A stretch of DNA of 15,606 nt from Pseudomonadota bacterium (lineage in GTDB: Bacteria > Myxococcota > Bradymonadia > UBA4248): the NCBI GenBank assembly GCA_017629415.1, contig JAGBXG010000445.1, positions 1-15,606 on the forward strand, in the 5' to 3' direction. Each line of letters opens with the position of its first letter. Position 1 is the first letter of the stretch. Position numbers and translations under genes: made by a program. Positions 3,101-15,569 of the stretch are shown piece by piece. Below the pieces are notes generated by a model. The model saw only the letters and a list, made by a program, of their open reading frames with translations, was not told where the DNA came from and searched no databases.

Positions 3101-3735
3101 GTATTGCCGCCGCTGCAGAACAAACGCCGGGATGCCTCGTCACGCAAGCCCGGCTCCAATTCGTCAAAGCTAAACCCCAGGATGAAGACATTCTTTTGCT
3201 CGATGATAACGGGAAAACGACAGCCACACTCTTTGGGTTCAGAGCTCAAGAAACTAAACTTGCAGCTCATGCACTGGCGGATTTTGTCGCGCCGCAAGAT
3301 GGTGTTGTTGGGCTCTTTGCCCTAACTTGTCACATCGGTTCCCCCAAAATGCATCTCGACAATGTCGAAGATGAACTCATTGAGATGGTATTGTCGACTT
3401 TGGCTACCGCTTTTGTCGATATTGCTAACGATGTTTTGCACGAAATTACCGTTGCCCCCCTTGGCAACTATATTTGTCCGGCTTCCGGTTACCCCATCAG
3501 CCCCGATCATACCCTTAAAACAGATATCTTGCGTCTGCTTAAAGCTGATGAAATAGGCATTCAGCTGACCGAAAGCGGCATGATGAACCCCCTGGCATCC
3601 ATCTGTGGATTTACCCTCGTACATCCCGATGCCGCTTACTTTTCATTAGGTACCATCGGCGATGATCAATGGAGCGATTATGCCCGACGCCGCCACCTGG
3701 ACGTCGCCGCAATCAAACAATACTGCGGGAAATAG
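181..3735 (+). CDS. metH: Cobalamin-dependent methionine synthase (MetH)
   Basis: The 1184-residue protein transfers a methyl group from methyltetrahydrofolate to homocysteine through B12, making methionine in the cytosol. All modules are visible. The homocysteine domain (about 1-320) has zinc ligands Cys237 (GLNCG) and Cys302/Cys303 (GGCCGTTP). The pterin domain (about 340-605) contains AERANVAGS and AFDEQGQA. The cap (about 645-730) precedes the B12 domain (about 738-870), which has DVHDIG with lower-axial His751, SGLIS and VGGAATN. The C-terminal reactivation domain (about 925-1184) contains SGYPISPDHT and SLGTIGDDQWSDYARRR. Length is close to the usual 1200-1230. Two features are odd. The AdoMet-binding RxxxGY motif reads CPASGY, with Cys1099 in place of Arg, and a cysteine cluster lies at 955/957/962. 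A start at 190 is possible; both starts have weak ribosome sites (AGGAC at 176-180). The gene appears monocistronic, and no B12 or SAM riboswitch was recognised upstream. Confidence 0.97.
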   Translation: MTDMHKLLILDGGMGTMIQRYGLTEADYRGTQFAAHAHALKGNNDVLPMTRPDVIGAIHSEYLRAGADMIETCTFNANAVSQAEYGLSEHVRAMNLAAARVARQAADEVEAETGRRCLVAGSVGPTSVSLSMAADVDNPAKRPFDFDTLAAAYEEQMDALMEGGVDRILIETCFDTLNAKAACYAFRRVCERRQCSLPLMISASLADKAGRLLSGQTLEAFIHTMVPFKPASIGLNCGFGVQDMMGFLPTLVAHVPADIAISCYPNAGLPDADGGYHDDARQTAQWLADAAQKGWIDIAGGCCGTTPQHIAAIAEAFGQISCREMRKPTFDHEKCAVFTGLEAFATGGERMMIAERANVAGSRKFRRMIEEKTWDEALNIARQQMKNQNAHLIDVCMDAPMLDAQAAMVEFLRRMAAEADISRYPVCIDSSDFEVVRAGLRQCQGRCLVNSISLKEGEEAFLKKAKEIRDLGAAVVVMAFDEQGQAADTERRVQILSRAIDLLLKKANYRTTDIVIDPNILAIGTGMAEHAGQAISFVECCRQMLAQYPGIQTVGGLSNLSFSFRGRDDVRQTIHAEFLEYAGHDLTMVIANPGDPAASQLPESSPVELARDLVLCRNDNATDNMLAWMAQNAPQKHQTISAKRDDLGEITDPALRLCVAFSRGETAYLADDIAALAQKMTSLQVIEGPLMTAMNEVGRLFGEGKMFLPQIVKAARMMKQAIACLEMPEATADAPRLRKRVLIATVFGDVHDIGKNIVNVVLACNGYEVIDLGVMVETAKIVEEAQKHQVDAIGLSGLISPSLNVMVEVAQALKEAGICVPLFVGGAATNDAFAAIKLAPAYAPGIACHIADASRVPGVIGPWLAEETRGETENQILAKHEQIRAAWQRKTENLSLRSLAQSRAEAPARQFAPALVQALNHVAALGCQKLEWTPSELLPHIQWHRLVKVATGGRCHCADGLCEREQQLIETAKRIAAAAEQTPGCLVTQARLQFVKAKPQDEDILLLDDNGKTTATLFGFRAQETKLAAHALADFVAPQDGVVGLFALTCHIGSPKMHLDNVEDELIEMVLSTLATAFVDIANDVLHEITVAPLGNYICPASGYPISPDHTLKTDILRLLKADEIGIQLTESGMMNPLASICGFTLVHPDAAYFSLGTIGDDQWSDYARRRHLDVAAIKQYCGK

Positions 3736-3743
3736 GGGCTTTT

Positions 3744-3819
3744 GGGTGGGGCTTTGCCCCGGACCCCACCAAAGGGCGCTGCCCTTTGGAATCCTGCCAA
3801 AGGGGCTGAGCCCCTTTGG
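3744..3819. repeat. GC-rich hairpin array after metH
   Basis: Three hairpins follow the metH stop. GGGGC-ttt-GCCCC (3748-3760) lies inside a larger GGTGGGG/CCCCACC pairing. AAAGGGC-gct-GCCCTTT spans 3771-3787. CCAAAGGGGC-tga-GCCCCTTTGG (3797-3819) is a perfect 10-bp stem. GGAATCC follows the second and third hairpins as a direct repeat. No T-run follows, so this is not a classical terminator, although the stems could slow polymerase or protect the metH mRNA 3' end. Short open frames here only translate the repeat. Confidence 0.75.
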
Positions 3820-3943
3820 AATCCCGCAATATGGGGCGGTTTTCGGGAGTTAGCCGGATACTGGTTGCTGAACTTTTTGGGGCGAAATGGGAACCCTGTA
3901 TCCCATTCCGCTTGGGTAAGTTTTAACACTTCGTGAATGCTGA

Positions 3944-6703: not shown

Positions 6704-7231
6704 CTAGTGTTTGGATTTTTTCTTGGATTTCTTGGGTGCCGGTGCATCTTCAGCAGCCGAAGTGTCTGCAGAGTCATCGCTTGTTTCCACTGTTTCTTCA
6801 GCGGCAGCATCAACGGTTTCTTCGATCGGTGTTTCAACGACGGCATCTTCGACCGGCGTTTCAACGACAGCATCTTCGACCGGTGCATCAACGACAGCAT
6901 CTTCGACCGGTGCATCAACGACGGTTTCTTCGACCGGTGTTTCAACGACGGTTTCTTCGACCGGTGTTTCAACGACGGTTTCTTCGACCGATGCGCAGCA
7001 GGCTTCACAGTCGCTCAGAATCAGGCGTTCAATGGCGGCATGCACGCGAGTGGCGTCTGCAGCATTTGTTTTCAAATAGGCAAGCAGGCATTTGAGCTGG
7101 CAATCGTCGAGACTTTCCAGTTCATCTTTGATGCCAACCGTTCTGCGCCAGTTGTTTAAAACATTGCGAGCCGACTGATAGTCAAAACGCATTTCGAGAT
7201 AGTTCATAATTTGGGTTTTGGATGCGCCCAT
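6704..7231 (-). CDS. Protein with acidic nonapeptide repeats and Lys-rich tail, unknown function
   Basis: The 175-residue protein is not recognised. The N-terminal part (1-80) looks helical (NYLEMRFDYQSARNVLNNWR) and carries Cys44, Cys48 and a C-E-A-C-C cluster (75, 78, 79). From about 81 to 139 a nine-residue unit of the type VEETVVETP repeats, with variants VEDAVVDAP. An acidic Ser/Ala/Asp stretch follows, then a basic tail PKKSKKKSKH. The ribosome site AGGAGG lies 5 bases before the ATG. It follows the small Cys4 gene after 28 bases and a strong terminator follows it, so the two probably form one transcript. The repeat tail is likely an extended, highly charged linker. There is no signal peptide or membrane segment. 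It is a real gene: good ribosome site, terminator, and repeats in whole codons. Confidence 0.75.
   Translation of the reverse strand: MGASKTQIMNYLEMRFDYQSARNVLNNWRRTVGIKDELESLDDCQLKCLLAYLKTNAADATRVHAAIERLILSDCEACCASVEETVVETPVEETVVETPVEETVVDAPVEDAVVDAPVEDAVVETPVEDAVVETPIEETVDAAAEETVETSDDSADTSAAEDAPAPKKSKKKSKH
6822..6990 (-). repeat. 27-bp in-frame tandem repeat
   Basis: The unit beginning TCGACCGG recurs exactly every 27 bases, at 6822, 6849, 6876, 6903, 6930, 6957 and 6984. This gives six full units plus a partial one. Units differ by synonymous changes and by GCATC versus GTTTC (Glu-Asp-Ala versus Glu-Glu-Thr types). The period is nine codons, so copy number can change without breaking the frame. 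Confidence 0.95.
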
Positions 7232-7538: not shown

Positions 7539-7591
7539 GATCAGCTCTAAAGATAAAAGTGAATAAAATCTATCTGACTTTTGGGTGTATT

Positions 7592-7669
7592 CGGCTTTTT
7601 GGCGTATGCCAAATACGCCGGATTTTAGCTTCGCTATGTCGAGCCTGACGGCTCTTCATACGCTTCGCC
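7592..7669. repeat. 93-bp tandem duplication, copy 1 (78-bp conserved core)
   Basis: It contains a hairpin GGCGTAT-GCCAA-ATACGCC (7601-7619) and, at 7633-7663 on the minus strand, a bulged-hairpin repeat: GC-g-TATG, AA, GAGCC, loop GTCA, GGCTC, GA, CATA-GC. Copy 2 begins exactly 93 bases later and differs at only a few positions. It lies between the baseplate operon and the small Cys4 gene. Open frames across it are repeat translations. Confidence 0.9.
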
Positions 7670-7684
7670 ATGGTGTGGGGTATC

Positions 7685-7762
7685 CGGCTTTTTGGCGTAT
7701 GCCAAATACGCCGGATTTGGGCTTCGCTATGTCGAGCCTGACGGCTCTTCATACGCTTCGCC
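7685..7762. repeat. 93-bp tandem duplication, copy 2
   Basis: The same two hairpins occur here: one at 7682-7716, where outer arms ATCCGGC/GCCGGAT pair perfectly, and a bulged-hairpin repeat at 7726-7756 on the minus strand. Six T's (7765-7770) follow on the plus strand, so the plus strand reads as a hairpin plus T-run. No plus-strand gene precedes it. Confidence 0.9.
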
Positions 7763-7777
7763 CATTTTTTAGTGCAT

Positions 7778-7822
7778 CCCCGAGTTTTACCGGATCGGGG
7801 CGTTGCGGGGCGGCAGCCCCGC
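7778..7822. repeat. Two GC-rich hairpins
   Basis: CCCCGA (7778-7783) pairs with TCGGGG (7795-7800). GCGGGGC (7805-7811) pairs with GCCCCGC (7816-7822) around GGCA. They are part of the intergenic repeat island downstream of the baseplate operon. No coding potential was found. Confidence 0.7.
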
Positions 7823-7832
7823 ATTGGGGGTA

Positions 7833-7879
7833 GGCGCGTATTGGCGCAGCCAATAGCGCCGCAGGGGGCTTAGCCCCCT
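7833..7879 (+). repeat. Bulged-hairpin repeat plus adjoining hairpin
   Basis: GGCGC, bulged G7838, TATTGGC, loop GCA, GCCAATA, GCGCC (7833-7860) forms a 12-bp stem with one bulged G, in the same place as in the copies at 56 and 15515. AGGGGGC-tta-GCCCCCT (7863-7879) follows. The pair sits 55 bases past the stop of the last baseplate-operon gene and could act as a transcript 3' end, but no T-run follows on the minus strand. Confidence 0.75.
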
Positions 7880-7933: not shown

Positions 7934-9481
7934 TTACAGCGCCTGATAGAACCAGAAGCGATACATATTGATATCACGTGCGGCGGTCACAGCTTTTTGT
8001 GTCACTTTCAGGACTTCGCTGGAAACGAATTCGGCCGGGATGAGGAACGGCCAGTTACGCCAACGGAAGCGTTTATCGGAGCCCGCGCATTGTGAAATAC
8101 CCACGCGGACGTCGTTGGCGGAGTATTCGATTTCGAAGTCCCCGCGAGCATAGTCCATACGGCGGAGGAGCATAATCGGGCGGTTGGGGGTGACATTATG
8201 GACTTCAAATGAAGTGTAGCCGCCTTCATGAGCGATACCGACGTCTTCGACGGTGACGCCGTCCGGGTAACGAATGCGCTGACGGGCGCGCCAAGAATCG
8301 CGAGCTTCCAAAATTTGGAACATGTGTGCGGTTTCGCTGTCTTTGTTCAAGACATCGATCATATCGATCAAAGTCCATTCCTGGCCATCGATGGTGATGA
8401 CTTCGGGCATGTCACCGCTCAATTCTTTCAGGCGTGTCCATTCCTGTGAAATTTCGTTTTCACCATTTTCCAGTACAGTTGGTGCCAGTTCTTCGCCGAC
8501 GATTGCGGAAAGTGACAAAGAGCCTTTTTCTTTGACGGCAATGACCTGATCCAAGCTGTTGAAATTGATGAGTTCATTTTCGTCGATCAAGAGTGCTTTA
8601 TCGTCCACGAGATCGCGGAACACTTCCACCGAGTGTTTGAACTGACCGAAGTCTTTCATGGCTTTCAAGGTCGGTTTAGTGGCTTCGATTTCTGTGATGG
8701 TATCCCATTCGAGGTTACCGATATCGGACAAGAGCGGCATAATATTCTGGGGACCGACGGTGCCGGATTCGAGCAACATATCGATCATCATCAAGCCCAG
8801 AGCCGCGCCGTTGGCGGCGAGAACTTTTTTATCGCGAGCCATGCGATAGTAGGAATCACGCTGACCGCGAATAATTTTGCGCAAACGATTGATGAGTTCC
8901 ATCGGCAGGTAACCGCCGACGACGCCCGCGCGAGGCACGAAACGCAGATCGATTTCATTCGGGCCGGGTTCCATGGGATCTTTGGCATCCGTAATTTTCT
9001 TGGCATCTTCGGTCAGATAAACGCGTGCGATTTCGACTTCACGGGAAATATCCGGTTCTGTGATTGAAATTTCAATCGCGGCTTTTTCCTGAATGCGGCG
9101 ATGACCTTTGAAATCAAGATTTTCTTTATAAGAAATGAAATCGGTGAATTCTTCGACGTATTTCACGACGAAATAAATCGTCAAAGGAAGTTTGAAATCT
9201 GCCTTATTGATGGCTTTGATTTCTGTTTCATAAAGAATGATATCGTTGCCCTGACCGTCAATGGCATAACCCGGTGAAACCTCGACCGACATATCTGCAC
9301 GACCGCGAGCGCGGACTTTCAGTTCCTGACGATATCCGGGAACCATGCCGGCCCCATGAAAACAGCGGTTATGGAGTTTGTGTTTTTCGACATGATACCG
9401 TTCAGCATCATTCCAGTCCTTGGTTGTCGTTACAAAACCCTTGAAAAAATTAATTCTCTTAAATCCCTGGTCTTCAGCCAT
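7934..9481 (-). CDS. Contractile-injection-associated protein, probable peripheral particle/baseplate component
   Basis: The 515-residue protein is the last gene of the baseplate operon. No signal peptide or membrane segment is seen. The N-terminal region (about 8-160) is beta-rich: FFKGFVTTTKDWNDAERYH, then LHNRCFHGAGMVPGY and VEVSPGYAIDGQGNDIILY. From memory, similar N-termini occur in uncharacterised proteins near tail/baseplate genes. The middle (about 190-400) is mainly helical. The C-terminal part (about 418-515) looks like a beta-sandwich (FEVHNVTPNRPIMLLRRMDY ... YRFWFYQAL). A fibre, tip or adaptor role is inferred from position. ATG at 9481 is chosen because AGGTGGAG ends 3 bases before it; an in-frame GTG at 9490 lies inside that site. 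It is separated from the tail-I gene by 120 bases with a hairpin. Confidence 0.8.
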   Translation of the reverse strand: MAEDQGFKRINFFKGFVTTTKDWNDAERYHVEKHKLHNRCFHGAGMVPGYRQELKVRARGRADMSVEVSPGYAIDGQGNDIILYETEIKAINKADFKLPLTIYFVVKYVEEFTDFISYKENLDFKGHRRIQEKAAIEISITEPDISREVEIARVYLTEDAKKITDAKDPMEPGPNEIDLRFVPRAGVVGGYLPMELINRLRKIIRGQRDSYYRMARDKKVLAANGAALGLMMIDMLLESGTVGPQNIMPLLSDIGNLEWDTITEIEATKPTLKAMKDFGQFKHSVEVFRDLVDDKALLIDENELINFNSLDQVIAVKEKGSLSLSAIVGEELAPTVLENGENEISQEWTRLKELSGDMPEVITIDGQEWTLIDMIDVLNKDSETAHMFQILEARDSWRARQRIRYPDGVTVEDVGIAHEGGYTSFEVHNVTPNRPIMLLRRMDYARGDFEIEYSANDVRVGISQCAGSDKRFRWRNWPFLIPAEFVSSEVLKVTQKAVTAARDINMYRFWFYQAL

Positions 9482-9502
9482 GATCTCCACCTGATGCGCA
9501 AG

Positions 9503-9521
9503 CTCTGAGAAACCCTCAGAG
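9503..9521 (-). promoter_or_regulatory. Hairpin in the leader of the 515-residue protein gene
   Basis: CTCTGAG (9503-9509) and CTCAGAG (9515-9521) form a 7-bp stem, 13 bases upstream of the ribosome site. The minus strand has no T-run after it, so it is more likely an mRNA processing or stability element than a terminator. Confidence 0.4.
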
Positions 9522-9601
9522 AATGTCTATATGATGAAATAATTTATTGAGATGATGCATAACGCATTTTAACGGATTTCAGAATACCGAAAAAATACGT
9601 T

Positions 9602-10495
9602 TTATTCTTCGCCCGGAAGCCGTTCAACTTCTGCTTCACCAAGCTCCACAATTTCTTCGCCGGAACCGATAACATAGCCGGAATCTTCGTCGCCGACCAT
9701 GAGTTGGAATTCCGAGAGTGCCACTTTTTTGCCCTTGAAACGAAGATAATACATCGTATGAGCAGGTTTTTCGGCACGAATAATGTCGTGAATCTTGATA
9801 ATCGTATGTTCCGAAACCTCTTCAGGTTCGAGCGGAATATCGACGATAAAACAGTGAGAAACATTCACTTGCGGGAAAATGATGGTGTCGATATCCATCG
9901 TGGAATGCACACCAATCTGGAAACCATGGAAAGGCCAGGCATTTTCGATAATCTCAGGTTCTACGCCTGTAAATATCGATAAAAATAACTTCAAACCTTT
10001 CACGGTGCCACGGATGCGATAATAATCTACCGCGCGACGCAGCAAATAACGTTTTTTACCTTCGGGCCAGTCTTCATCTAAAACAAACCCAATCCAGCTT
10101 GCAAGCCAAGGTAAAAACTTCTCCGGCGTCTCATATGGATCAAACATGCTTGCGATGTTGTTGACATTGATCGCCACCGAATCAAACATGTGGCGAATAA
10201 TCCACAGAAAATCGCGAAGATGCGTATGACCCTCATATATCGCCGTGCGATATATCCCAGGTAAAAATTCACAAAATGAACGCTGGGCGACATGAATCGT
10301 CACGATCGTGTCGGCATCGACGATCTGACCTTTCGGCGGATCCTGACTCAACACGGTCATTGGCGTTTCAAAACTTTCTTCGTAAAAAAGATCAGGCTTC
10401 GGAAATCCATTCAGCTCCAGATAGATCGAAGCATCGGCCGCCGTCAGCCCTTCAAGATCAGGAACGCTCAGTTTTCTTTTCGTTTGTACGCGCAT
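9602..10495 (-). CDS. PASTA domain fused to phage tail protein I-type baseplate protein
   Basis: The 297-residue protein has two parts. Residues about 8-70 look like a PASTA module (VPDLEGLTAADA ... LSQDPPKGQIVDADTIVTI). Residues about 72-255 match the P2 gpI/TIGR02242-type tail protein: FLPGIYR, FLPWLASWIGF, RRAVDYYRIRGTVKGLKLFL (153-172), and IIRAEKPAHTMYYLRF (238-253). The acidic C-terminus ends ERLPGEE. In contractile tails gpI binds gpJ to form the baseplate wedge, which fits its place directly after the J-like gene (34-bp gap). PASTA domains usually bind peptidoglycan or beta-lactam-like ligands in Ser/Thr kinases and PBPs, so a cell-wall-contact role is possible. GGAG 6 bases before the ATG supports the start. 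Confidence 0.9.
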   Translation of the reverse strand: MRVQTKRKLSVPDLEGLTAADASIYLELNGFPKPDLFYEESFETPMTVLSQDPPKGQIVDADTIVTIHVAQRSFCEFLPGIYRTAIYEGHTHLRDFLWIIRHMFDSVAINVNNIASMFDPYETPEKFLPWLASWIGFVLDEDWPEGKKRYLLRRAVDYYRIRGTVKGLKLFLSIFTGVEPEIIENAWPFHGFQIGVHSTMDIDTIIFPQVNVSHCFIVDIPLEPEEVSEHTIIKIHDIIRAEKPAHTMYYLRFKGKKVALSEFQLMVGDEDSGYVIGSGEEIVELGEAEVERLPGEE

Positions 10496-10529
10496 TTCCT
10501 ACTCCAGAGAATGGCTCGATAATACACAG

Positions 10530-13500
10530 TTACATCACGCGTTCGCGTGTTTTCTCTGTAATATCGACATTGACGAGATACGGCAGACCCTTAGGCCCGA
10601 GTTTAATTTGATCGACAAACATGCCTTTGTCTTCATCCAAAATTTGGACGCGATCGACAAAGTCCACGCCTTCGACATTTTCAATAATCTGATAAAGATC
10701 AACCTTCAGAACACTGCGACCAAATTTCCAGCCTTTGCCGTCGCGGCCACCCACAATCGGATGTAAGAAACGGCGAAGCGCCTTATTAATATCGCGTTTC
10801 AAACGTTCGCTGGCACCTGTCGATGTGCGGATAATATCCAGGTAAACGCTCATTTCCGTGTATTGTGGACGTTCGACGTTCACTTTAACAGTAATCAGAC
10901 GGCGTTCATCTAAATAGGCTTTTACACGACGCAACAGCTCTGTTGTCGGAACAAGCTTCTTGTCATATTCTTCTTTCTGTTCGTCAAATTTAGGCACGAC
11001 AACGATCGTGACAGCACCTTCGCGTTCGGTCGAAGGCAAGCAGCATGTACGCGCAATGGCATTTGAACTCTGAAGTGACAAAACTTCAAAGTCTTCCTGG
11101 GTGACGGCACGATAACGGCTCTTGATGACATAAGGTCCGCGTTGTTTGACAGATTCAAGCGTTTCAACATCACTGCCGCCGGCACCTGGATAATGGTTGG
11201 TCACACCATCAATATAGGCAATAGCCTGACGGATTGTCGTTGCCTGGTTCACACCAATGTTCCCTTTCACGCCGCCGCCCACGCAATAATGTGATGTACG
11301 GACGTTCTGATCGAGCAAAGGCACCATCATGCCGCGCGTACCATCACCAAATCGAACCTTACCGGTCAGACGATCCAAGCGGTAATGACGGCTGCGGTCA
11401 TTCGACATGAAGAAGCTTTCAACATTCTCCCAGCGAACCCAGTAACCGCCCAAACGCGTGTCTTCCTGAATAAACGGTGTGTCGCCATAAAGTTCTTTTA
11501 ATGCCGTGATTTCTTCATCTCGCGGCATTTCTTTTTCGCGAACCCAAATTTCTTCACCCTCAAGAACAGGTGTATTCAGGAATTTGAAAACCTGATTCGG
11601 GGTGCCGCGACCCGTGCCCATGATCTCATAATTCATCGTGCGGCGGTTGATCGCTTCAACGGTATTGAAAAGAATATGATCAATCTGCGGAAGTTCCTCA
11701 TAACCGCCCATCTCCAAACGTACGCGCAGCCAGAAAAGATTCTCGCCAAACTTGCGCGTCGGGGCCATGTTCTTCGGACCTAAAAATTCGAGATAACCCG
11801 ATTCGGTAAATGCACGAGTGCCGTCTGTCACATTCAGATCTTCCCACTCTTTACCATTCCAGAATTCCCAGACCAGCTTCTTGTTGCCATAGTACTCTTC
11901 TTCCATCTTCTGATAGTACTGGCGCAGGAAACGTTCATCCTCGTGTTTGCGTTCAATTTTGCCCGCTGTACGTGTCAGAACATGGACGTAAATCTGAACG
12001 CGTTCGTTCGGGAAAGGTCCGTTCATACCGAAGTACATGGACGGATTCTCATCGGGAATCGGTTCAAACACTTGGGTCAAAGACAAATCTTCGCTCAGCG
12101 CTGCCGTCACATCTTCATAACGGAAATCGTTATAAGTCAAAACGCGAGGCGGTGTCTGGCTGGCTTCCTCATACTTGATGCGGACTGATTTCATTTGAGG
12201 CGGACGCAGGGGACGTTCATCAAACCAAGCCCATTTGTCGCCATCGAGCATGTACATACCCGGAACGCCGTAATCGCCTTGTAAAATACGCGCACGGATG
12301 AAATAGGCTTCCTGATCCGAAACTTCGACTTTCGACATATTTTCGGGAACGGTGAAACTGACGGTACCATTGCGTGTGAAGCAATAAGTCGAATCATCAA
12401 ATTCCACACCCTTGAGGGATTCTTCCACGCCTTTGGGATTAACCACACCGATGCGCTGCCACTGACGTCCGTCGTAAAATTCCCAAGCGATCTGAAGATC
12501 CGAAGACGGATTCAATCCCTGAACAGCAATGACATCGGCAAGTTCAAAGTCGATGCGGATACGTGCTGCCGCATGGCCAAAAAGTTCGTCATTGCCAATG
12601 TAGAATGCACTGTCAATGCCCGGCTCTTTGTGGAACGGATAAAAGGCTTTGCTCAAATCTGTCGGGATAAAATCGTTGCTTTCTGTCTGGGTCAACGCTT
12701 TATCGGGCAAAATGCCTTCGCCGAGAATCTCAATACGCATTTTGAGACGTTCGACATTTGTCATATCAGTATTCTGGGGCACATTTACGAGATGTGCGCG
12801 AATCCAGAAGCCTTTTTCATCGTTGACAACGGTTTCTTCCATGCTGTCAACGCCCTCAAAGGCAACCCAGCCAATCGGCAGTTCTTGTGTTGAAGGCTCG
12901 AGTTCACGCCAGCGATGACCGTTCCAGTATTCCCATTCACACAACGTCGGAAAATCGGTATCCGGACTGTCTGGAGTTTCCACACCGATAATCAAAAGGG
13001 CTTCTTCGCTGAGCACTTCGAGGCGCGGATCCATAAAATACAGATAACGTTCAACGCGCTGACAGCCCATGAAGGCTTCAAAAGATTGCCCAGGACGTCC
13101 GTAAATATACGGCGTATTATCGGCATATGCATCGTGGAATTGAGAAAAACAGCGAACAATAGAAGTCGGAAGAACAACGAGATCTTTCAAGGTCTCAAAA
13201 ACGATGGGGTCTTCATCGCTTTTATAGTTTGTGGCTACACTTGTACCGGCAGGAACGACCTGATAATTGCGCGCTCCCGGAACAAGGCTGAATGTCAGGT
13301 GGCAATGCGCAGGTTGCGGTGGCTGAAGATCAATCCCCATCAGGTTTAAAAATGCCAAATAGTTCTTCTCACCCACGCGATTGAGACGATAAAGCAAGAC
13401 TTCAATCAGCCAGGCAAAGAGTTCAAGCAGCGTAATACCAGGATCTGACGCGTTGTGATTCGTCCATTCCGGGCAGTATTTCGGTATCAGTTCTACGGCC

Positions 13501-13553
13501 TCGCGGACGAGATCTTCCCATTTGCGATCGTCCAGTTTCGGTAATGGAATCAT
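10530..13553 (-). CDS. Putative baseplate assembly protein (gpJ-like, TIGR02243 type)
   Basis: The 1007-residue protein is the largest of the operon. The N-terminus has the family signature PEWTNHNASDPGITLLELFAW (29-49), followed by YRLNRVGEKNYL. Three internal modules begin with WEYWNGHRW (207-215), WEFYDGRQW (357-365) and WEFWNGKEW (562-570). Each ends in an aromatic-[IL]-R-[AV]-[RH] strand (FWIRAHL, YFIRARI, FWLRVRL). VRFGDGTRG (733-741) and NHYPGAGGSD (786-794) lead into the Baseplate_J-like part, with YRAVTQEDFE (814-823) and GRSVLKVDLYQIIENVEGVD (945-964). It should form the wedge or inner baseplate of a contractile injection particle, with the tail-I protein as partner. Its ATG overlaps the gp25-like stop codon by four bases (ATGA), which indicates translational coupling. 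Confidence 0.93.
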   Translation of the reverse strand: MIPLPKLDDRKWEDLVREAVELIPKYCPEWTNHNASDPGITLLELFAWLIEVLLYRLNRVGEKNYLAFLNLMGIDLQPPQPAHCHLTFSLVPGARNYQVVPAGTSVATNYKSDEDPIVFETLKDLVVLPTSIVRCFSQFHDAYADNTPYIYGRPGQSFEAFMGCQRVERYLYFMDPRLEVLSEEALLIIGVETPDSPDTDFPTLCEWEYWNGHRWRELEPSTQELPIGWVAFEGVDSMEETVVNDEKGFWIRAHLVNVPQNTDMTNVERLKMRIEILGEGILPDKALTQTESNDFIPTDLSKAFYPFHKEPGIDSAFYIGNDELFGHAAARIRIDFELADVIAVQGLNPSSDLQIAWEFYDGRQWQRIGVVNPKGVEESLKGVEFDDSTYCFTRNGTVSFTVPENMSKVEVSDQEAYFIRARILQGDYGVPGMYMLDGDKWAWFDERPLRPPQMKSVRIKYEEASQTPPRVLTYNDFRYEDVTAALSEDLSLTQVFEPIPDENPSMYFGMNGPFPNERVQIYVHVLTRTAGKIERKHEDERFLRQYYQKMEEEYYGNKKLVWEFWNGKEWEDLNVTDGTRAFTESGYLEFLGPKNMAPTRKFGENLFWLRVRLEMGGYEELPQIDHILFNTVEAINRRTMNYEIMGTGRGTPNQVFKFLNTPVLEGEEIWVREKEMPRDEEITALKELYGDTPFIQEDTRLGGYWVRWENVESFFMSNDRSRHYRLDRLTGKVRFGDGTRGMMVPLLDQNVRTSHYCVGGGVKGNIGVNQATTIRQAIAYIDGVTNHYPGAGGSDVETLESVKQRGPYVIKSRYRAVTQEDFEVLSLQSSNAIARTCCLPSTEREGAVTIVVVPKFDEQKEEYDKKLVPTTELLRRVKAYLDERRLITVKVNVERPQYTEMSVYLDIIRTSTGASERLKRDINKALRRFLHPIVGGRDGKGWKFGRSVLKVDLYQIIENVEGVDFVDRVQILDEDKGMFVDQIKLGPKGLPYLVNVDITEKTRERVM

Positions 13554-13954
13554 ACTTCTCCCTCTTTACGAAGATAAAATGGATAAACCAGATTCGATTT
13601 TGTGTTGGTCTTCCGAATTGTATATGAAATCGTCACATTCATGCGGCTCTGTTCTGAACTATCGGGCTGAGCCTCCACCTCGATGTCGGCCACACGAGGC
13701 TCAAATTCCATCAAGGCACGCTTCACTTCATATTCTATCTTGGCTGCTGTTATCGCCGTGTTCGGCTCAAACAAAATATCATGAATGGCACAGCCATAAT
13801 TTGGGCGTTTCATACGTTCGCCGGGTGCCGTGCCAAGTATCAGCATCATACTCTGACGAATATTCTCATCATCAGAGCTCATTTCTGTGCCGCCCAGGGC
13901 ATCTATCTGCATCGGAAAAGAAAATCCGCTGCCGATAATCTTGCTCTTTGCCAT
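13550..13954 (-). CDS. gpW/gp25-family baseplate wedge protein
   Basis: The 134-residue protein shows the gp25-like core ILGTAPGERMKRPNYGC (39-55), HDILFEPN, EPRV (85-88), and a C-terminal NLVYPFYL strand. In T4 and related contractile systems gp25 joins the baseplate to the first sheath ring and is among the most conserved baseplate parts. Start choice: the frame also opens at a GTG at 13963 with AAGGA a few bases ahead. The ATG at 13954 keeps MAKSKIIGSGF as the N-terminus and has GGTGA 5 bases upstream. Both are plausible. The gene follows the zinc-ribbon gene by 9-18 bases and overlaps the J-like gene by 4. Confidence 0.92.
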   Translation of the reverse strand: MAKSKIIGSGFSFPMQIDALGGTEMSSDDENIRQSMMLILGTAPGERMKRPNYGCAIHDILFEPNTAITAAKIEYEVKRALMEFEPRVADIEVEAQPDSSEQSRMNVTISYTIRKTNTKSNLVYPFYLRKEGEV

Positions 13955-13972
13955 TGCTGTCACCGATCCTTA

Positions 13973-15464: not shown

Positions 15465-15511
15465 AAAAAAAGCGGCGCGTATGGAGGGCGTATGCCCGAC
15501 ATAGCGTCGCT
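15465..15511 (-). terminator. Bulged-hairpin repeat that reads as an intrinsic terminator on the minus strand
   Basis: The repeat core (15477-15505, plus strand) is GC-g-TATG, GA, GGGC, loop GTAT, GCCC, GA, CATA-GC. GCGGCGC and GCGTCGC extend the outer stem with one G-T wobble. On the minus strand the hairpin is followed directly by seven T's (complement of 15465-15471). It could terminate a minus-strand gene beyond the right edge before the YchF-like gene begins. Confidence 0.7.
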
Positions 15512-15514
15512 CAA

Positions 15515-15548
15515 GCCCGGCGTATGGGCTGTAAGACCATAGCCGGGC
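15515..15548 (+). repeat. Bulged-hairpin repeat, long-stem copy
   Basis: GCCCGGC, bulged G15522, TATGG, nine-base loop, CCATA, GCCGGGC gives a 12-bp stem that is perfect except for the bulged G. It lies 9 bases after the previous hairpin, forming a pair. Confidence 0.8.
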
Positions 15549-15569
15549 ACCAAGATATATCATTTTGTC

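Follow-up and report, generated by a model that had tools for sequence, protein, structure and literature searches.

A family of dispersed bulged-G hairpins with compensated stems in one uncultured myxobacterial lineage

Hairpins of the window

The window (the whole 15,606-nt stretch of DNA analysed here, GC 48%) carries genes that, judged by their translations alone, appear to be metH, a GAF/histidine kinase gene, a gene for an RNA-binding protein, baseplate-like contractile-injection genes and ychF. The baseplate-like genes occupy 7934–13963 on the reverse strand and perhaps form a contractile injection system; the 518-aa product of this region has a second match, 34–36% identical, in each of four related genomes (G002, G004, G007 and G008). 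Downstream of the metH-like gene, positions 3735–3840 hold other GC-rich palindromes (GGGGCTTTGCCCC, AAAGGGCGCTGCCCTTT and AAAGGGGCTGAGCCCCTTT), which lack the bracket described below and are perhaps another repeat family. A 27-bp tandem repeat at 6777–7021 lies within a 175-aa ORF (6704–7231, reverse strand), where it encodes VEETVVETP-type repeats.

Folding of the window placed the hairpins named in an earlier note on this DNA within a few bases of the positions given there, with the folds it had claimed. A covariance model, R1, built from 34 equal-length copies of the family, matched five of the window's hairpins at E ≤ 1 and missed four. On the forward strand, hairpin 2 of the first double, at 51–89 (core 57–82; 56–83 in the earlier note), scores 19.4 bits, and its partner, hairpin 1 at 8–46, is a degenerate copy missed by R1, with the bracket CGTCT..ATAG (CGTCT for CGTAT), tandem GA/GA and the inner stem GGCC/GGCC. 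The reverse-strand stretch 7585–7762 comprises two tandem copies, A and B, of one double-hairpin unit, 95% identical over 86 nt. Their first hairpins, at 7720–7762 in A and 7627–7669 in B (inner stem GAGCC/GGCTC), are the two GAGCC copies previously placed at 7726–7756 and 7633–7663; both were missed by R1 and are identified by motif and fold. The hairpins at 7682–7716 and 7592–7621, which the earlier note had said approach the same plan, turned out to be the second hairpins of these tandem doubles with AAAG for ATAG in the right bracket: that of A (7681–7717) scores 18.4 bits, and that of B (7585–7626) is the fourth that R1 missed. On the forward strand, a single hairpin with G-rich arms (class 3, see below) spans 7805–7878 (core 7837–7856), scores 28.4 bits for 7830–7863 and is flanked by one more palindrome on each side. 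The last double, also on the forward strand, pairs hairpin 1 at 15471–15511 (core 15478–15504; 22.7 bits), which has tandem GA/GA and an A run before it, with hairpin 2 at 15514–15549 (core 15521–15542), which scores 43.3 bits and is itself one of the 34 copies in the model's seed. The window has four occurrences of the strict motif CGTATGRA..GACATAG, which was present in 1 of 500 dinucleotide-preserving shuffles.

Core motif, distribution and pairing

The constant part of these hairpins is smaller than the arms previously read as GC-g-TATG plus RA on the left and GA plus CATA-GC on the right: the bulged-G bracket is indeed constant, with only C-g-TAT ... ATA-G fixed. Sequence is almost unconstrained in the loop and in both stems, outer and inner, and the pairing is kept. 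Facing GA dinucleotides are present in some hairpins, as had been noticed, and are optional rather than part of the constant element; at the two steps past the first inner pair, 165 bracket hairpins from the collected loci (tips below 10 nt skipped) had Watson–Crick pairs in 91 cases, GA/GA in 24 and the next commonest form in 6. In a blind scan over all 1,024 bracket types (closing pair, bulged base and three pairs, with at least four outer pairs and one inner pair), CgTAT was found 69 times, against 6 for the runner-up, in 400 kb of genome G002 not picked for hits. The corresponding figures were 18 versus 2 in G004, 12 versus 2 in G007 (a 100-kb sample, 20 kb of it read as N) and 11 versus 3 in G008, and CgTAT was absent from the 12 commonest brackets of G009, a genome with no R1 match. 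A second class of hairpin (class 3), with the G-rich arms AGAGGGGGTAGCGG ... CCGCTCAGGGGGAGACTTCCCCC, occurs 20 times in the first 400 kb of G002; the copies are much alike outside and variable inside, and most carry GGTAG, some GGTCG, at the stem.

In a collection of one genome per species covering 84,980 species, the strict pattern GCGTATGRARRSYN{3,8}RSYYGACATAGC matched seven stretches, all in two Myxococcales-titled MAGs (UBA4248 and SRR17382101_bin.24), and viral contigs gave no match to it. Going by its name, the former MAG would belong to the GTDB genus UBA4248, recorded from pig faeces in an excerpt of PMC8772591. Among nine genomes of the order of SRR17382101_bin.24 (G001–G009), CGTATGRA..GACATAG was found in seven, with 24 copies in G002, and a reversed control motif gave at most two in any genome and strand. 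R1 at E ≤ 0.1 matched eight of the nine (not G009), with 147–224 matches each, counts for which up to 150 candidates were scored per genome and both strands were included, palindromes also matching the reverse strand. On 377 genomes sampled from the phylum, under stricter filters, R1 matched eight, identical to the order's eight. The covariance search of relatives that the earlier note had proposed thus returned many more copies, and the dispersed family it had described is real and was understated, with hundreds of copies in the genomes of relatives. We counted 293 bracket hairpins in 800 kb of G002 (40 stretches, 10 of them picked for known hits), which extrapolates to about a thousand copies per genome; the MAGs of the hairpin lineage are fragmented. 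YchF of the window is 83% identical to its counterpart in G002, 84% in G007, 80% in G008, 58% in G009 and 36–38% in four others, with none found in G001 in this nine-genome comparison, and the 518-aa protein is 91% identical in G004, 90% in G002, 88% in G007, 83% in G008 and 35% in G001. The bracket hairpins are restricted to one uncultured myxobacterial lineage. Among the matches listed in the open-licence literature, we found no published account of such a family.

A stem that changes while keeping its pairing had been described for the window, and covariation exceeded control both in the seed copies and in sets assembled blind to pairing. In the 34 seed copies, 94 cells were changed on both sides (34 when shuffled), and the covariation score was 0.413, compared to 0.117 for shuffled copies and 0.045–0.102 for slid structures. 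Since the seed copies had been picked by pairing, we retested pairing on sites picked without it. First, at 40 sites picked by CGTAT-N-GA..GA-N-ATAG alone, inner pair 2 was Watson–Crick in 93% (48% shuffled) and outer pair 2 in 97% (56% shuffled); inner pair 1 and outer pairs 1 and 6 were not above the best shuffle. Second, a search by geometry only, for two brackets 13–16 nt apart, returned 173 doubles (83 + 68 + 22), and six control brackets gave 0 or 1 doubles each per sample. In the 173 doubles, 16 of 17 positions were 75–98% Watson–Crick, as against 33–69% after shuffling, with inner pair 1 of the two hairpins at 93% and 98% (34% and 36% shuffled). The weakest position, outer pair 4 of hairpin 2, stood at 50% (33% shuffled), and an extra bulged A is often found there. 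These data strongly support a structurally constrained, compensated hairpin family.

Covariation of this strength would suit structured RNA elements (UTR or small RNA) selected for RNA shape, as would the tandem GA/GA of the hairpins, which could form sheared pairs in RNA. However, the 2,817 pair cells of the 173 doubles comprise 2,388 Watson–Crick, 46 G-T, 31 A-C and 352 other combinations. RNA is expected to tolerate G-U well above A-C, and the near-equal rarity of G-T and A-C is better explained by DNA, or by copying between the arms. Also against an RNA element, no Rfam model reached its gathering score in the window.

Doubles, tips and genomic context

About half of the G002 hairpins (153 of 293) sit in 78 same-strand doubles, with a linker of 14 nt in 54 of the 78 and a range of 13–17 nt. 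Neighbours within 300 nt of each other are on the same strand in 82 cases and on opposite strands in 10, and 78 of the 82 lie at 10–19 nt. Merging of the hairpins in the 800 kb gave 206 clusters (123 single, 79 double and 4 triple), where some singles may hide a partner because the detector is strict. On their 5′ side doubles are flanked by A-rich sequence, and CCCA often follows on the 3′ side; beyond the A-rich flank no target signature was found.

The tips of the hairpins vary much more than their frames. In 56 pairs of doubles with frames at least 85% identical (mean 88%), identity was 48% for tip 1 and 62% for tip 2, compared to 49% for random tips. Mantel tests on the 54 doubles with a 14-nt linker left frame 1 and tip 1 unlinked (r = −0.05, p = 0.79) and linked frame 2 weakly to tip 2 (r = 0.20, p = 0.0065), which argues against fully free tips; frame 1 and frame 2 (r = 0.13, p = 0.037) were also weakly linked, and tip 1 and tip 2 gave r = 0.14 (p = 0.039). 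Common descent of the doubles was rejected, the Mantel links being weak, and the most alike pair of doubles is 92% identical, so that recent copying of a double is not directly visible. Opposite-strand doubles are nested within class-3 tips in two scanned cases (locus L079, 1679–1810, and locus L162, 4082–4170), and further nesting of this kind was seen by eye near L088 and L092. A second palindrome type, GAGACGYG..CRYGTCTC, also lies inside some tips (L064, L071 at 2594 and L140 at 2961, in G001, G007 and G005).

By the gene calls of a crude ORF caller, the 206 clusters comprise 53 sense and 46 antisense clusters in spacers between tandem genes, 29 in convergent and 16 in divergent spacers, 40 in predicted ORFs, 18 at edges and 4 in long gaps. 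The hairpins have no strand bias relative to genes; the 53 sense and 46 antisense clusters are a further point against structured RNA, which we regard as very unlikely. Cluster strand equals the GC-skew sign of the surrounding 20 kb in 110 of 206 cases; there is no link, and thus no lagging-strand signal. As G002 spacers of 100–1,500 nt are 167 tandem, 46 convergent and 46 divergent, the 29 convergent and 16 divergent clusters indicate that divergent spacers are used less. The nearer stop codon is a median 40–65 nt away in three of the four layouts. This proximity, together with the A-rich 5′ flank, which would appear as a T run on the opposite strand, would be expected of transcription terminators or 3′-end stabilisers that converged on a common hairpin plan. 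Terminators, however, need no invariant bulged G, no TAT/ATA and no fixed double geometry, and class-3 units were seen by eye to lack a T run after the hairpins; we give such convergence very little probability.

We compared spacer occupancy between G002 and G007 (115 orthologs with a mean identity of 66%, 45 adjacent ortholog pairs), using all ORFs, with two G007 stretches read as N (37,022 bases). Hairpins were present in neither species at 35 of the 45 orthologous spacers, in both at 3, in G002 only at 5 and in G007 only at 2, so occupancy differs at 7 of the 10 occupied spacers. Five of these seven one-sided spacers measure 3–60 nt without hairpins and 145–320 nt with them; the other two (158/122 and 398/212 nt) have lengths other than simple insertion predicts. 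The differences in occupancy could be deletions. Of the three co-occupied spacers, inspected by eye, two have hairpins in the same orientation with similar arms and unrelated tips, and the third has different units. The window spacer around 7592–7860, the site of the earlier note's finding, is 395 nt long; its counterparts without hairpins are 12 nt in G007, 45 nt in G002 and 58 nt in G008, and in G004 the counterpart is 155 nt and holds a different double, seen by eye and missed by the detector.

Immobile chromosomal protein-binding sites (of nucleoid, gyrase or condensin type), in which proteins bind the hairpin or cruciform to organise the genome while ordinary mutation adds and removes copies, would account for the more than 100 matches that each of eight clade genomes has and for a location near gene 3′ ends with divergent spacers used less. 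The length contrast of the five one-sided spacers and the nesting of doubles within other units both speak against such sites, which we consider unlikely.

Relation to known systems and a proposed mechanism

The closest likeness is to REP, BIME and REPIN elements, short intergenic palindromes in hundreds of copies, some REP stems having a bulge or mismatch in the passages available from PMC8266576; REP subfamilies whose stem residues differ yet stay complementary are described in an excerpt of PMC3733652. As with REP, the short palindrome studied here has many intergenic copies, with 40 of 206 clusters inside ORFs according to the crude caller. Unlike REP, the bracket doubles lack a conserved GTAG or CGTC foot (a profile of 50 doubles has no fixed 5′ tetranucleotide), their stem sequence is nearly free and no RAYT accompanies them consistently; unlike REPIN and BIME, they pair in direct orientation at about 14 nt and not inverted. 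Since neither the foot tag nor inverted pairing was found, we do not file the bracket family as REP. The ends of IS200/IS605 elements, as described in part of PMC8266576, are likewise same-strand hairpins with an irregular base that are recognised on single-stranded DNA, and the features contacted by TnpA-REP and IS200-type enzymes are bulges, mismatches or bases of the loop (same source). In contrast, no tnpA lies between the bracket hairpins, and IS200-type TnpA genes are not consistently beside them. Mitochondrial double-hairpin and repetitive hairpin elements are also short dispersed hairpin units, some of them double (excerpts of PMC2800124 and PMC4478555), but are organellar, and the likeness is one of description.

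Integron attC sites are recognised through their structure, their sequence not being conserved (PMC2727003, in the part consulted); recognition of this kind would suit a reading of the bracket hairpins as attC-like sites on which a tyrosine recombinase acts. The bracket hairpins, however, are dispersed singly or in short groups, and the integron integrase model TIGR02249 gave no match above cut-off in any of the nine genomes; its weaker matches, probably Xer-type, occur in eight of the nine and likewise in all 14 control genomes. We consider attC-like sites highly improbable. The integron integrase does not track the hairpin family and was rejected as a helper, as were an IS91-type Y2 transposase, present only in G009, which has no hairpins, and a reverse transcriptase, present only in G006, G007 and G009, a distribution unlike that of the hairpins.

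Searches for Y1_Tnp gave 17 matches in seven of the nine genomes; at E ≤ 0.001 there was none in G002 and G006, both hairpin-rich, and G009, without hairpins, has three. By class motifs taken from part of PMC6006769, the Y1 genes of hairpin genomes are 8 IS200-like and 6 RAYT-like, with L040 and L140 classed as RAYT-like on the sequence preceding the catalytic motif because the frames, as displayed, were cut off before it. Same-strand hairpins lie 31, 33 and 92 nt past the stop codon of three of the six RAYT-like genes (L141, L133 and L040), set beside a G002 baseline of 47 same-strand clusters within 100 nt downstream for 465 genes; the comparison is post hoc, across genomes and on few cases, and so a lead only. 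The RAYT-like Y1 proteins encoded next to hairpins are those of G003 and G008. Three of the eight IS200-like genes have same-strand hairpins 180–255 nt downstream. At the 17 Y1 loci we inspected up to 1.5 kb of flank, in some cases shortened by contig ends, and no gene stood between bracket hairpins. The RAYT-like gene flanked by the hairpin that the earlier note envisaged is therefore weakly indicated, by the downstream hairpins of three genes, and does not extend to hairpins on both sides or to the two hairpin-rich genomes without Y1. No helper enzyme is established, and a Y1 transposase of RAYT-like type offers a weak lead. At L128 (G005) and in a similar region, L129 (G007), an IS200-type TnpA gene has a long palindrome around GCGGCTTCCAGCCGC just downstream; the palindrome at L128 is unrelated to the bracket hairpin. 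In L040, L135 and L140 the RAYT-like domains lie in longer frames and are preceded by WHSRGYLPH, with AGVSPA-type repeats earlier in L040 and L140.

Of the two origins that had been offered for the hairpins, REP/RAYT-type or structured RNA, a DNA element of REP type fits better: the lack of strand bias, G-T hardly above A-C and the differences in occupancy together argue for a DNA-level element rather than RNA. We consider it probable that the family is a lineage-specific, REP-like, non-autonomous mobile DNA repeat, read as folded single-stranded DNA. Weighing against it are the lack of a helper gene that follows the hairpins, the limit of 92% identity between doubles, occupancy differences that deletion could also produce, and the absence of a further target signature and of a lagging-strand signal. 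The unit, in many cases a pair of hairpins on one strand with about 14 nt between them, would be recognised as a single-stranded fold exposed by replication, and recognition would occur via the bulged G of C-g-TAT/ATA-G, which may also mark the strand, and hardly via stem sequence. An enzyme acting on hairpins in single-stranded DNA, most likely of Y1/HUH type, would carry units into spacers, chiefly close to the 3′ ends of genes. Stems may stay paired both because template switching between arms, a published route that creates and maintains hairpins (PMC8794818, in excerpt), removes mismatches and because unpaired copies escape recognition, and tips would change fast, partly via nested insertion of other palindromes. 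A bolder version, which we hold to be possible but rather doubtful, is a shape-coded mobile repeat of roughly a thousand copies per genome (by extrapolation), addressed by the bulged-G bracket alone and moved by an undescribed enzyme that reads hairpins in single-stranded DNA, the inner hairpin being renewed at the tips by template switching and nested insertion so fast that near-identical frames carry random-like first tips.

A family defined by a five-base bracket plus pairing would be missed by repeat finders that cluster sequences, and other families may be hidden in the same way. Its hundreds of natural variants could be used to probe what a hairpin-reading enzyme needs, and they provide a test case in nature of what keeps stems paired, selection or template switching in replication.
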